Source: an uncultured Xenococcaceae cyanobacterium (lineage in GTDB: Bacteria > Cyanobacteriota > Cyanobacteriia > Cyanobacteriales > Xenococcaceae). Taken from it: a DNA stretch of 64,000 nt. The notes below the pieces were generated by a model. It was given only the letters and a program-made list of their open reading frames with translations, did no database searches and had not been told where the DNA came from. Both the position numbers and the translations under genes were made by a program. Location: positions 1 to 64,000 of the forward strand of contig CALKUU010000034.1 in assembly GCA_937996665.1 (NCBI GenBank), in the 5' to 3' direction. Below, one piece after another: positions 4,093 through 14,563 of this stretch (positions within the stretch are counted from its first letter, which is position 1; the number at the start of each line of letters is the position of its first letter).

Positions 4093-5664
4093 TTAATTAT
4101 TCAACTCGTAAAAATAGGCTTCAGCTCCAGCTTGGGAAAACAAGTCTTTTCTATTTCCAACTTGATCAAGATAATCCCTAATTTCCTGGCGTTCTTTGGA
4201 GTCAGCACGAACGATAAACCAAACTGGATAACCTTGCAGTGGTTGCAGATCGATCGCTAATCTACGCTGTTTGTCAGCTAGGGTTGTTTTCTTGTCATCA
4301 AAATCAACTGTTCCCTTGGTGTAGTCAAGGTTTTGATAACCATTCAACTCCAGATAATAATCAAAAGCCCGATTACCCTGCTCATAAACATAGATCTTTC
4401 CTCCTAGTTGCACCTGCTCTGCTACATAAGCAATGACTGGTCTGATTTCGTGTTTTTGCTCAGGCTGAAAAATAAAGTTACTAGCTCGATAGAGGTTGGT
4501 AAACACCAAACTGTAAAGACAGACAATTCCGAGTAGTCCAGATAAAGCTATTAACCAAGGGCGTTTTCGAGAACTAATTTGCTTGAGGTTAGAGATCTTT
4601 TCTAATAAGAAAGCAATTCCCTCGGCGATAATCATGATTGCTAAGGGGGCAAGAAAGAGAACTAGGCGATCGCGGAAAGGATATTTATGAAGATAGGCAG
4701 CAATAATCGTGGCAACAAAAGGAGAAATTAGCGCCAGCCAGATAGTGCGCCGAGTCTGGTAGCAAACTACACAACCCACAACAAAAGCAAAGATCCCAAT
4801 GCCATCAGTGATGCCCCGAAAGCCGAGGGGATGATAGAAAAACTTACCCAAAGCATCGAGTAACCAGACAATATCCACCCAAGAACTAGGATATCTGGGC
4901 GCCCAAGAAGCACTAAGATCTTGATTGCTAAGGGTATTAACAATCGTCAACCAGTAAAACAAACCAAAACTAACAAGCCAGCTTAAATAAATTGGTAAGC
5001 GATTAACCAAAGTTTGACGCAGATATCTTTTCTTGATGGTTAATAAGTTCCAGCCTTCCAAGCCTGCAAGCATAAAAATTGAAGGGTAAGAAAACCAGAT
5101 TGCCAAGCTGCCTAAACAGGCAAGTCCTAGGATTTGTTTGCTGGATAAAATCTGTCGGTGAGCTTTAACTAGTACCCAAAAGATAAGCAGGGATATGGCA
5201 ACATCGCTAGAGTAGGGTTTTAATTCAGTAGAAAAATAAAGCAAGTAGCGACCACAGGCAAAAAGAGCGATCGCGATGGGGGCAGCAAGAGCAGAACTAT
5301 ATTTACGGACTAGGCGATAGAACAAAACCAAGGATGCAATGCTGGCAAGAAAGGGAACTAACCGCAGTGCATATTCCCCATCATTCCAAAGCTGAGTTAT
5401 TAGTTTTTCTAGCCAAAGAAATCCGAGGGGAGCAGCCTGATTATTATCGAGGGTTTGGGTTAATTCTGAATAAGAGCGGTTAATGATGTTGAGCGCAAGA
5501 TCTACTTCATCACCCCAGAGCGATCGGTTACTAAGGTATTGGATTGTGCGAACTACAAGACCAAGGAAAACTAGGCAAAGGCTGAGATAATTGCCAATCT
5601 TGAACCATCTTGTTCTGGGTTGCTTATTCTTGTTGTCTAACGAAGAATTTTCTTCTAGTTTCAC
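4093..5664 (-). CDS. glycosyltransferase family 39-type membrane protein
   Basis: 523 aa multi-TM; N-terminal SLWGDEVDLALNIINRSYSELTQTLDNNQAAPLGFLWLEKL typical of PMT/ArnT-like GT39. Confidence 0.75.
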   Translation of the reverse strand: MKLEENSSLDNKNKQPRTRWFKIGNYLSLCLVFLGLVVRTIQYLSNRSLWGDEVDLALNIINRSYSELTQTLDNNQAAPLGFLWLEKLITQLWNDGEYALRLVPFLASIASLVLFYRLVRKYSSALAAPIAIALFACGRYLLYFSTELKPYSSDVAISLLIFWVLVKAHRQILSSKQILGLACLGSLAIWFSYPSIFMLAGLEGWNLLTIKKRYLRQTLVNRLPIYLSWLVSFGLFYWLTIVNTLSNQDLSASWAPRYPSSWVDIVWLLDALGKFFYHPLGFRGITDGIGIFAFVVGCVVCYQTRRTIWLALISPFVATIIAAYLHKYPFRDRLVLFLAPLAIMIIAEGIAFLLEKISNLKQISSRKRPWLIALSGLLGIVCLYSLVFTNLYRASNFIFQPEQKHEIRPVIAYVAEQVQLGGKIYVYEQGNRAFDYYLELNGYQNLDYTKGTVDFDDKKTTLADKQRRLAIDLQPLQGYPVWFIVRADSKERQEIRDYLDQVGNRKDLFSQAGAEAYFYELNN

Positions 5665-11426: not shown

Positions 11427-11639
11427 TCACAAAACTAATTCAATCTGTTCTGATGATGCGGAATCCTTTGCAAACATATCATCAGGAATCGGTTCGAGCA
11501 TTAACTTTATAGCATCTTGCAAATTGGCGATCGCCTCTGTTTTAGTATCCCCAAAAGAAGAAACAAAGTTTAACTCTGGACAAGTAGCTGAAAAAGCCTG
11601 TGCTTCCTCGTCCCATTCTAAAATCGCTCTAATATTCAT
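11427..11639 (-). CDS. HicB family antitoxin
   Basis: MNIRAILEWDEEAQAFSATCPELNFVSSFGDTKTEAIANLQDAIKLML. Confidence 0.85.
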   Translation of the reverse strand: MNIRAILEWDEEAQAFSATCPELNFVSSFGDTKTEAIANLQDAIKLMLEPIPDDMFAKDSASSEQIELVL

Positions 11640-11700
11640 GGATTAATCTCTCAAAGACACTTTCTATTTTAATTGCAATCACAAGTTTGAAGTTTGAAAA

Positions 11701-11740
11701 TGCGATCGCCCTGACTAAACATCTTCAACAAAAGCGATTG
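11701..11740. repeat. HIP1-bounded about 40-bp repeat, copy A
   Basis: tgcgatcgccctgactaaacatcttcaacaaaagcgattg. Confidence 0.7.
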
Positions 11741-11820
11741 TTTTTTAATTTAGAAATCTACTAGATTCGAATATTTAGTACCATATATAATATCAATATG
11801 CTATCTGATATGGTTCATAA

Positions 11821-12240
11821 ATGAATCCTAGAATTGTAATTGACACTAATGTTCTGATTGGCGCACTAATTGGCAAAAAATATAGTGCTAATCGCAAATT
11901 TATAAAATTATGCTTAACGCAAGAATTCACTCCCCTAATAAATAAAACTCTCTTTACCGAATACGAGGATGTTATTAGCCGCAAAGAAATTGTGGACAAG
12001 TCAATATATACAGAATCAGAAATTAATGAATTCTTGGATGCTTTGTTAAGTGTTTGTCACTGGATTAAGATCTACTATCTCTGGCGACCAAATTTGCGAG
12101 ATGAAAAAGATAATTATTTAGTAGAATTAGCCGTTGCCGGTAACGCTCAATTTATCGTCACTCATAATGTTAAGGACTTTCAGCAAAGTCAATTAAAATT
12201 TCCCCAAATTCAAATTAAAAGACCGCAGGAGATTATGTAA
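11821..12240 (+). CDS. PIN-domain toxin (COG1569-like)
   Basis: NPRIVIDTNVLIGALIG...LRDEKDNYLVELAVAGNAQFIVTHNVKDF. Confidence 0.88.
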   Translation: MNPRIVIDTNVLIGALIGKKYSANRKFIKLCLTQEFTPLINKTLFTEYEDVISRKEIVDKSIYTESEINEFLDALLSVCHWIKIYYLWRPNLRDEKDNYLVELAVAGNAQFIVTHNVKDFQQSQLKFPQIQIKRPQEIM

Positions 12241-12242
12241 GT

Positions 12243-12470
12243 ATGGCTGCCATTAACGTTAGATTACCTGACGAAAAACATGAACGCTTAAAAGAACTAG
12301 CTAAGTCAAAAAATATTAGTGTCAATAAATTAATGGAAGAACTAGCTACGATTGCTTTGACAGAATATGATGCAGAAACTAGGTTTAAACTAAGAGCAAG
12401 TAGGGGTTCTGTAGACCGTGGTTTGGAGCTGATTAATAAATTACAAGAACATTTTGGAGATGAGAGCTAA
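12243..12470 (+). CDS. ribbon-helix-helix antitoxin
   Basis: AAINVRLPDEKHERLKELAKSKNISVNKLMEELATIAL; 2 nt after the PIN toxin stop. Confidence 0.82.
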   Translation: MAAINVRLPDEKHERLKELAKSKNISVNKLMEELATIALTEYDAETRFKLRASRGSVDRGLELINKLQEHFGDES

Positions 12471-12492
12471 TTTAAGTATCATTCTTAAAAAT

Positions 12493-12532
12493 GCGATCGC
12501 CCTAACTAAACATCTTCAACAAAAGCGATCGC
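12493..12532. repeat. HIP1-bounded about 40-bp repeat, copy B
   Basis: gcgatcgccctaactaaacatcttcaacaaaagcgatcgc, near identical to copy A. Confidence 0.75.
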
Positions 12533-12572
12533 TCTAACCCAAAATTAAAATACTTTCTATCAGGCAACAGTT

Positions 12573-12797
12573 TCACAAGGTTGCAATAAATAATTTTTTC
12601 TCTCTATCTGCGGCAAAAGCAAGACAAGCTCTAATATCTTCTGAAGTTAATTCCGAAAAATCTTCCAAAATTTCTGTTTTAGTCATCCCCCCTGCTAAAT
12701 ATTCCAAAACATCAGAAACAGTAATCCTCATTCCTCTAATGCAAGGTTTTCCGCTCCTTTTTCCTGACTCTATAGTGATTATGTTGTTGTAGTTCAT
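12573..12797 (-). CDS. DUF433 domain protein (VapB-like antitoxin family)
   Basis: ITIESGKRSGKPCIRGMRITVSDVLEYLAGGMTKTEILEDFSELTSEDIRACLAFAADRE. Confidence 0.9.
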   Translation of the reverse strand: MNYNNIITIESGKRSGKPCIRGMRITVSDVLEYLAGGMTKTEILEDFSELTSEDIRACLAFAADREKKLFIATL

Positions 12798-12860
12798 AGG
12801 ATTATTCTGGGTATCTAGGTGAATTTTAAAACAGATTTTTATTTTTAAGAATGAAGTGTT

Positions 12861-12900
12861 GCGATCGCTCTAATCCACTACCTTCAACAAAAGCGATCGC
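12861..12900. repeat. HIP1-bounded about 40-bp repeat, copy C
   Basis: gcgatcgctctaatccactaccttcaacaaaagcgatcgc. Confidence 0.7.
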
Positions 12901-12908
12901 TTCAAAGA

Positions 12909-13136
12909 TTACAAACTATCAATAAAATCTTCTGGTGCAACCCTAGCTTGTCTCAAAATGCTAGCCAAAGTTCCTACTTTTAATTCTTTGTGGCTAGGAA
13001 CAACACAACCTATCTCCCCATTCGAGGTTATTTTTTTCATAACAACATGGCTTCCTGTCTGTCTAGCTTTCTGAAATCCCAGCTTCTCTAGTGCTTTAAT
13101 TGCCTTTTTACTGGAGATTCTAGGCAACTTAGGCAT
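12909..13136 (-). CDS. HicA family toxin
   Basis: LPRISSKKAIKALEKLGFQKARQTGSHVVMKK...CVVPSHKELKVGTLASILRQARV. Confidence 0.92.
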   Translation of the reverse strand: MPKLPRISSKKAIKALEKLGFQKARQTGSHVVMKKITSNGEIGCVVPSHKELKVGTLASILRQARVAPEDFIDSL

Positions 13137-13338
13137 AACTAATATCCATAGTCGTAACGTATCTGGGCGAACTTTCAGTTAAAGGAAATTCTTCTAAATA
13201 TAGTTTGGTTGCTTCTTTCAACCCTGCGATCGCTTCTTCAATAGTTGTACCTTGATCAACTGTCCCGACCTCAGGACATTCCGCAATGTACATATCCTCT
13301 TCTTTATGGATGACAATAGTAAAACTACGATTTTTCAT
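13129..13338 (-). CDS. HicB family antitoxin (start likely 13338, not the longer ORF start 13419)
   Basis: MKNRSFTIVIHKEEDMYIAECPEVGTVDQGTTIEEAIAGLKEATKLYLEEFP; overlaps hicA by 8 nt. Confidence 0.88.
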   Translation of the reverse strand: MKNRSFTIVIHKEEDMYIAECPEVGTVDQGTTIEEAIAGLKEATKLYLEEFPLTESSPRYVTTMDISYA

Positions 13339-13443
13339 TATCTTTCCCCGGCTGATTACAGAAAGATTATAGACACTAGGAGACTTAAAAAAGTGACAAC
13401 TAGACTCAATAACCTTCACAAAAAGCGATCGCCCTAAAATCGA

Positions 13444-13647
13444 CTAATTCTTATTCTGTAACTTGCTCAAAATTGCAGCTTGAATTTTCTCATCAAAATT
13501 GGGATCGTCAGGATTAACAATTACTTGTTTGGGATTTTGATTGATGCGATCTAGATAAGCTTGGAGCGCTGCTTTATTATTGCGATGCTTGAGAAAATAG
13601 TCTTTTAGCTCTTCGTCAGTCATGGTTGCATAATTTATTTGGTTCAT
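13444..13647 (-). CDS. DUF6887-like small protein
   Basis: MNQINYATMTDEELKDYFLKHRNNKAALQAYLDRINQNPKQ; translationally coupled to the gene ending at 13647. Confidence 0.65.
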   Translation of the reverse strand: MNQINYATMTDEELKDYFLKHRNNKAALQAYLDRINQNPKQVIVNPDDPNFDEKIQAAILSKLQNKN

Positions 13648-13823
13648 TAAATTACTTCTCCATTAGGCTTAATTTGAAACTCTAATTCTTCTTCATATCC
13701 TGCGAGGATATATAAGTTTTTAGTTCTGTCGTCTATGCAAATCAAATGAATTGGCTGCAACATCGTATAAGTTAACTGATAACTAACACGGTATAAACTC
13801 TGTAATTGTTTAGCCGTAGGCAT
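13647..13823 (-). CDS. DUF6888-like small protein, 58 aa (absent from the ORF track)
   Basis: MPTAKQLQSLYRVSYQLTYTMLQPIHLICIDDRTKNLYILAGYEEELEFQIKPNGEVI*; TAATG overlap with next gene. Confidence 0.7.
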   Translation of the reverse strand: MPTAKQLQSLYRVSYQLTYTMLQPIHLICIDDRTKNLYILAGYEEELEFQIKPNGEVI

Positions 13824-14003
13824 CTCTTTTTGATTTTAGCTACTTTTTCGCGAGTTCAGTGTAAATGATTTTTTGCGCTTACTTTGGCATCTTGTAAGTT
13901 TTTTACGAAAATTTCAATAACAAGAATTCGTCAAAAGCTGGCATTACAAGGTCGCCTTAATCCTCATGATAAAATCTAAGTGATCACATTGTAATTACCT
14001 ACT

Positions 14004-14252
14004 GTGGAAACCAAAATTATTGCGATCGGCAACTCTCAGGGGATCAGAATACCTAAAGCGATCGTCGAGCAGTGCGGATTTAAAAATTCTGTAGAGATGA
14101 AAGTAGTTGAAGGGAGCTTAGTTTTAACTCCTATTAAGAAGATTAGGGAAGGTTGGGCAGAGTCATTTCAGACGATGGCTGCTAATGGTGACGATGAATT
14201 ATTAATCGATGATGCTCTTCCCACAGTAGAAGATGAGGATTGGGAATGGTAG
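14004..14252 (+). CDS. MazE/AbrB-type antitoxin
   Basis: METKIIAIGNSQGIRIPKAIVEQCGFKNSVEMKVVEGSLVLTP. Confidence 0.9.
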   Translation: METKIIAIGNSQGIRIPKAIVEQCGFKNSVEMKVVEGSLVLTPIKKIREGWAESFQTMAANGDDELLIDDALPTVEDEDWEW

Positions 14253-14563
14253 CCAGAGGAGAAGTCTACTTGGTGAATTTAGACCCGACAATTGGCTCAG
14301 AAGTCCAAAAAAATCGACCCTGCCTAATCGTTTCTCCTGATGAAATGAATCAGTATATTCGGACAGTAATTATTGCTTCGATCACTACCAAATTACGAAG
14401 TTACAAAAGCAGAGTTGAGATCGAGTTTAAAGGCAAACAGGGACAAGTCATGTTAGACCAGTTGCGAACAGTTGATAAACAACGTTTAGTCAAAAAACAA
14501 GGACAGCTAGCTTTAAAAGATGTTCAGAAAGTTTTGACTATATTGCAGGAAATGTTTGCCTAA
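14240..14563 (+). CDS. MazF/PemK-type endoribonuclease toxin
   Basis: RGEVYLVNLDPTIGSEVQKNRPCLIVSPDEMNQYIRTVIIASITT...VMLDQLRTVDKQRL. Confidence 0.93.
   Translation: MGMVARGEVYLVNLDPTIGSEVQKNRPCLIVSPDEMNQYIRTVIIASITTKLRSYKSRVEIEFKGKQGQVMLDQLRTVDKQRLVKKQGQLALKDVQKVLTILQEMFA

Follow-up and report, generated by a model that had tools for sequence, protein, structure and literature searches.

Introduction

Pairs of uncharacterised protein families that are widespread and present in multiple copies in cyanobacteria can turn out to be toxin-antitoxin (TA) systems, as later shown for the PIN-COG2442 (DUF433) pairs, VapBC10 (PMC3834315), and stand-alone DUF433 antitoxins have been listed for Synechocystis 6803 (PMC4963859). 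Short gene overlaps lead to coupled translation and occur preferentially between genes for subunits of heteromeric complexes, whereby the last 15 nucleotides (nt) of the upstream gene can be enough for coupling (PMC10666635). On the level of translation initiation, AUU or AUA start codons have been described for infC and pcnB of Escherichia coli and for infC, cvfC1 and ccpN of Staphylococcus aureus (PMC13009471 and references therein); in S. aureus, conserved AUU/AUA starts combined with extended Shine-Dalgarno (SD) motifs gave about 10% of the expression of an AUG reporter in poor medium, and AUU/AUA starts are modulated by IF3 (PMC13009471). Here, a pair of small overlapping genes, DUF6888 followed by DUF6887, is analysed in a 64,000 nt stretch of DNA from an uncultured Xenococcaceae cyanobacterium (assembly GCA_937996665.1, contig CALKUU010000034.1, positions 1 to 64,000), in the following called the window, and compared with its relatives. 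The pair best fits a scarce first and an abundant second product, spread and lost like a TA system.

Both open reading frames (ORFs), of 58 and 67 amino acids (aa), are found, with the TAATG overlap, where a preliminary description of this DNA had placed them without stating a strand, and both are on the minus strand; its assignment of the two proteins to DUF6888 and DUF6887 is confirmed by Pfam scores well past the cut-offs (Table 1). Neither family is named in the literature searched.

Distribution and coupling of the gene pair

DUF6888 is present in 71 and DUF6887 in 79 of 386 cyanobacterial genomes, a patchy distribution with absence from most genomes, and neither family occurs in 14 control genomes. 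All 71 DUF6888 genomes also carry DUF6887, such that the two genes, described before as a recurrent cyanobacterial pair, are the opposite of rarely co-occurring; eight further genomes carry DUF6887 only. The copy number reaches up to 15 per genome with strong differences between species of one genus, and a few copies are plasmid-borne, one such plasmid being typed as conjugative. A profile search of genome contigs with one subfamily retrieved cyanobacterial records only. A phage origin of the pair was considered and rejected, as no match was found in a phage collection or among viral contigs.

DUF6888 is the upstream gene in each of 109 distinct pairs collected from the window and other genomes, and DUF6887 overlaps or directly abuts it in 105 of them, so that the coupling of the two genes seen in the window extends to the family and the organisation typical of type II TA systems, two small genes in a tightly linked operon, is observed throughout these 105 pairs. 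The four non-abutting pairs show a truncated or frameshifted DUF6888 frame or a more distant DUF6887 ATG. Junctions are of the types ATGA, TAATG/TGATG (in the window with one base, the A of TAATG, common to both genes), TAAATATG or more extended overlaps (5-23 nt); the relative frames of the two genes are distributed 73:36:0, with the same frame never used and no fusion in 109 pairs. The SD of DUF6887 is located inside the 3' end of DUF6888, at the codons of its conserved Asn-Gly-x-Trp end. This overlap arrangement is far beyond chance.

The genome of the window harbours a second, divergent DUF6888/DUF6887-like pair (contig C38, locus L064, near 193-363) adjoining an isoleucyl-tRNA synthetase-like gene, with a DUF6887 partner overlooked by the Pfam profile search. 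Long C-terminal extensions are present on the DUF6887 copies of loci L116 (3989 onward, 187 aa) and L156 (4177 onward, 203 aa), and DUF6887 frames of comparable length are present in genomes G024, G064 and G191.

Probable non-canonical start codons of DUF6888

To our knowledge, very few bacterial genes are known to begin with AUU. The conserved N-terminus of DUF6888 reads x-Pro-Thr-x-x-Gln, and in relatives an ATG, GTG or TTG codon (Met, Val or Leu) is positioned directly before Pro-Thr or one residue earlier, which identifies the start position of the gene. Many other relatives possess Ile at this place, encoded by ATT, ATC or ATA (ATH), preceded within a few codons by an in-frame stop, with no canonical start intervening. 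Among 159 intact pairs, a collection in which one sample was purposely weighted towards the ATT-type subfamily, the frame of 64 DUF6888 genes extends back to the upstream stop without ATG, GTG or TTG, with ATH in the last three codons before Pro-Thr in 62 of them; combined with 10 further genes with a canonical start only beyond eight codons, the fraction is 72/74. Taken by itself, the phylum-wide sample contains 34 genes of 102 that reach back to the stop without a canonical start. The best SD match, usually of 4-7 nt, typically ends 7-9 nt upstream of the ATH codon. The DUF6887 partners in the same 159 pairs start with ATG (154) or GTG/TTG (5), none being without a canonical start, and DUF6888 of the window itself starts at ATG.

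In a set of 80 named loci (Nostoc, Calothrix, Fischerella, Microcystis, Microcoleus, Crocosphaera, Leptolyngbyaceae and others), the non-canonical pattern spans dozens of genera, with ATH at position -1 or -2 in 40 of the 42 copies without a canonical start (Fisher p = 2e-6 versus copies having one). In copies that possess a canonical start further upstream, CTT, GTT, AGT or ACT is often found at the homologous codon, which constitutes a natural control, as this codon is free to vary where an upstream GTG, TTG or ATG exists. On the phylogenetic tree, the ATH label requires approximately 18 changes, 8 of them on well-supported branches, versus 52 in shuffles; the ATH start is clustered, yet has been gained or lost repeatedly.

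The median ratio of nonsynonymous to synonymous substitutions (dN/dS) is 0.065 for ATH-start DUF6888, 0.072 for canonical-start DUF6888 and 0.107 for the DUF6887 partners of ATH-start copies, and ATH-start copies are therefore not dead genes but encode a protein that is made and matters. The relatives thus unite the lack of a canonical in-frame start, ATH at the homologous position, a strong and properly spaced SD and purifying selection, a combination which makes it very probable that AUU, AUC or AUA is used as the DUF6888 start codon. That the respective copies have instead been inactivated by start-codon loss is highly improbable: while some DUF6888 copies are indeed broken by stops or frameshifts, demonstrating that loss does occur, the low dN/dS, the strong SD at the correct spacing, the retention of ATH only where no alternative start exists and the well-supported clades that keep ATH all speak against inactivation.

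Initiation strength, expressed as the energy of pairing between the 16S tail and the sequence preceding the start, differs between the two genes. Median values are -2.3 kcal/mol for ATG-start, -6.8 for GTG/TTG-start and -7.7 for ATH-start DUF6888, with DUF6887 at -9.3 and random sequence at -0.6, and 94% of the DUF6887 start sites across the family are at or below -4 kcal/mol. DUF6888 thus tends to be weak in one of the two signals, codon or SD, while both are strong in DUF6887. The DUF6888 copy in the window belongs to the sort with ATG and weak SD (+0.9 kcal/mol). As cyanobacteria commonly make little use of SD motifs, a weak SD at ATG is in itself unremarkable.

Selection and lopsided decay

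Decay of the pair is lopsided. DUF6888 is broken (17) or undetectable (17) beside 34 of the best 150 DUF6887 genes, compared with a broken or absent DUF6887 beside 6 of the best 150 DUF6888 genes (Fisher p = 2e-6), and even the ATT-type sample, chosen via DUF6888, contains five clear cases of broken DUF6888 with intact DUF6887 versus one reverse case. Orphan DUF6887 genes display a dN/dS of 0.11, equal to paired genes, and have thus kept purifying selection; the DUF6888 remnant next to them is often the 3' end holding the DUF6887 ribosome-binding site. Such decay fits toxin loss with antitoxin retention. Together, the non-canonical DUF6888 starts and the asymmetry of decay go beyond the preliminary description and are the strongest clues as to which gene would encode the toxin.

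Reversed roles, with DUF6887 as the toxin and DUF6888 as the antitoxin, would agree with the established observation that antitoxin-first is the commoner gene order in type II TA systems, but are improbable in view of intact DUF6887 persisting without DUF6888 in the 34/150 cases and in the eight genomes without any DUF6888, and of the stronger initiation signals being located on DUF6887, the wrong gene for a toxin. DUF6888 could be conceived mainly as a leader ORF that switches on DUF6887 by coupling, with a peptide that has no partner role, as the DUF6887 ribosome-binding site invariably falls within the 3' end of DUF6888, often the sole part retained beside orphans. Conservation of DUF6888 over its whole length, the confident prediction of a folded domain (see below) and a dN/dS below that of DUF6887 render this alternative highly improbable.

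In two loci (L095 and L099, near 4144-4400), orphan DUF6887 precedes a conserved small ORF (..IYDPKQGDKVVFSSNSYEVAKLWLLEDEYEPVEGRL..), with in-frame read-through at one of them; this ORF is possibly an alternative partner.

Predicted structures

Folded separately, with proteins from the window and related loci, DUF6888 is modelled by AlphaFold2 as one helix followed by three strands (alpha-beta-beta-beta; mean predicted local distance difference test score (pLDDT) 97) and DUF6887 as three helices (residues 11-20, 25-37 and 53-64) with an uncertain loose linker (mean pLDDT 72). Invariant or near-invariant residues of DUF6888 are P2, T3, Q6, D31, G42 and G55, a set that does not correspond to the active site of HicA or of PIN proteins. 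Foldseek against the PDB gave nothing below E 0.1 for DUF6888, and XisI, glyoxalase-type half-folds, TSEN15 and RnlA, all weak Foldseek matches, were rejected as fold relatives. Likewise judged unconvincing was the best match to a viral structure, an uncharacterised phage protein (E 0.006, TM 0.66). PDB sequence profiles gave no match for DUF6888, and a fold search with the DUF6887 model none either; profile matches of DUF6887 to S100A4 and a NUDIX chain cover short helical stretches and are regarded as coincidental.

Genomic neighbourhood

Neighbouring HicAB and MazEF genes, between which the pair had been placed in the preliminary description, are borne out, with HicB as a sub-threshold Pfam match (17.1 bits versus a cut-off of 27). 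More broadly, positions 11427-14563 of the window form a dense TA-type cluster composed of a lone HicB-like gene, PIN_3 with RHH, a stand-alone DUF433 gene, HicAB, DUF6888/DUF6887 and MazEF, which is flanked by a metallopeptidase-like gene and a gene resembling the tRNA 2-thiouridylase gene mnmA.

Table 1. Features of the DUF6888/DUF6887 locus and neighbouring TA-type genes in the window.
Feature	Position	Strand	Basis
DUF6888 gene, 58 aa, ATG start	13647..13823	minus	Pfam PF21828, 84.5 bits (cut-off 27, E 4e-24)
DUF6887 gene, 67 aa, ATG start	13444..13647	minus	Pfam PF21826, 74.5 bits (cut-off 24.2, E 8e-21)
TAATG, DUF6888 stop overlapping DUF6887 start	13645..13649	minus	sequence
GGAGA, DUF6887 SD within the DUF6888 3' end, codons of the conserved N-G-E motif	13657..13661	minus	sequence
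DUF6888 ATG start without usable SD upstream (+0.9 kcal/mol); homologous codon ATT/ATC/ATA in many relatives	13821..13823	minus	
PIN_3 gene and RHH gene	11821-12470		Pfam
DUF433 gene, no obvious PIN partner adjoining	12573-12797		Pfam
HicA (above cut-off) and HicB (weak)	12909-13419		Pfam
MazE and MazF/PemK (both above cut-off)	14004-14563		Pfam

Beyond the window, small ORFs (55-160 aa) amount to 0.57 per kb near DUF6888/DUF6887 pairs versus 0.36 per kb in random regions from some of the same genomes. Among 145 small ORFs in approximately 254 kb near pairs, at least 15 match TA families (DUF433, ParE-like, HicB, PIN, DUF4926, DUF4258), compared with 2 in 240 kb of control (HepT and nucleotidyltransferase; p = 0.0025), both counts being approximate, since they comprise families among the matches listed (top 25) with TA status assigned from general knowledge. 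The enrichment near TA genes that had been proposed as a check is hence found, and is confined to small genes within 2.5 kb of the pairs; among the 150 genes directly adjoining the pairs, counted irrespective of size, no family dominates. DUF433 genes are located in the window and near other copies of the pair. On the Gloeocapsa PCC 7428 plasmid pGLO7428.04 (locus L166, 3746-4410), a helix-turn-helix regulator gene is positioned directly upstream of DUF6888/DUF6887 in an apparent three-gene operon.

A candidate toxin-antitoxin-like module

We propose that DUF6888 and DUF6887 might constitute a translationally coupled module, the products of which would act together in a TA-like manner while being unrelated in sequence to known systems. 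The toxin would be the product of the first gene, DUF6888, a small alpha-beta-beta-beta protein, to be bound and neutralised by the small helical DUF6887 protein with its loose linker. Toxin synthesis would be held below antitoxin synthesis at initiation, with DUF6888 output limited either by a near-dead codon (AUU, AUC or AUA, sometimes UUG or GUG) behind a strong SD or, as in the window, by an AUG with little or no SD, while DUF6887, nearly always with AUG and a strong SD inside the DUF6888 end, would initiate strongly.

The TA-like character suggested in the preliminary description has thus been strengthened in part, by the reverse-order overlapping operon, the patchy multi-copy spread, the plasmid copies, the enrichment of TA families and the asymmetric decay; neither a known toxin family nor a DNA-binding antitoxin domain was found. 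Several results weigh against the proposal. Neither protein rises above noise in NCBIfam, PADLOC and PHROGs, no known toxin or antitoxin is matched in Pfam, and MazEF, RelE/ParE and other known toxins are recovered neither in Pfam, NCBIfam and PADLOC nor by Foldseek against the PDB below E 0.1. Profile searches assign DUF6887 to no DNA-binding family, and no conserved element is discernible upstream of the SD among ATH-start copies, so that a shared operator is not indicated; DNA binding is not a property of every TA antitoxin. The trade-off between start codon and SD is plausible, but not proven because the ATG copies form few clades, with only four independent well-supported pairs and no significance in the sign test. 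Finally, lopsided decay equally fits a merely dispensable DUF6888.

The main rival explanation is a non-toxic two-subunit complex, such as an adaptor, regulator or chaperone-like assembly, with DUF6887 as the core and DUF6888 as a low-abundance, losable accessory subunit. In line with such a complex, gene overlap is especially frequent for subunits of heteromeric complexes (PMC10666635), DUF6887 remains under purifying selection as an orphan, and neither a known toxin fold nor an operator was found; a patchy, multi-copy and partly plasmid-borne spread with enrichment of TA genes is, however, unlike a housekeeping complex, and a dispensable accessory would hardly be expected to be the better conserved partner, as DUF6888 is (0.065 versus 0.107 for DUF6887), so that we regard this explanation as rather unlikely. 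As toxicity and binding are what we infer rather than observe, and as neither a known toxin fold nor an upstream operator was matched, a TA-like module with DUF6888 as the toxin, DUF6887 as the antitoxin and toxin translation held low is given an even chance. More tentative still is the possible further step of a start-codon-gated toxin, that is, a new and, as far as seen, cyanobacterial TA family in which AUU, AUC or AUA might cap toxin output, possibly tied to IF3 or the state of the translation machinery, with the overlapping antitoxin gene initiating strongly.

Implications

If AUU, AUC or AUA indeed serves as the start of nearly half of the first genes sampled, DUF6888 would be a natural system for weak initiation and IF3 control, with a built-in control in canonical-start DUF6888 relatives and the always-canonical DUF6887 partner. 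Gene finders restricted to ATG, GTG and TTG would miss or truncate such DUF6888 genes, and the spread of the family is therefore likely under-reported. Should the pair be a TA system, it would add an unrelated toxin fold and illustrate the start codon as a means of setting the dose of a toxin.

Comparison with known systems

HicAB, which adjoins the pair in the window, shares with DUF6888/DUF6887 the reverse gene order (small toxin first, DUF6888 being the proposed one), the overlapping genes, the small proteins and the common occurrence in cyanobacteria. The topology of HicA is alpha-beta-beta-beta-alpha, which partly resembles the alpha-beta-beta-beta predicted for DUF6888. However, there is no Pfam HicA or HicB match in the pair, DUF6888 is without an invariant histidine and the predicted DUF6887 is helical and not HicB-like. 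VapBC/PIN systems differ in that DUF6888 has no PIN match or acidic cluster and one near-invariant Asp only. VapBC10 resembles the pair in its cyanobacterial multi-copy spread, although the families differ (PMC3834315), and the DUF433 gene of the window (12573-12797) resembles the stand-alone DUF433 antitoxins of Synechocystis 6803 (PMC4963859). XisI, the fdxN element excision controlling factor, is also a small cyanobacterial protein and the top Foldseek PDB match of DUF6888, but with E 0.15, a TM-score of 0.33 and a root-mean-square deviation of 6.6 is not a structural match. Regarding initiation, infC, pcnB, cvfC1 and ccpN possess a non-canonical start behind a strong SD, as is very probable for the ATH-type copies of DUF6888; whereas the former are single genes, DUF6888 is a whole mobile-looking family with recurrent AUU, AUC or AUA in a coupled pair.
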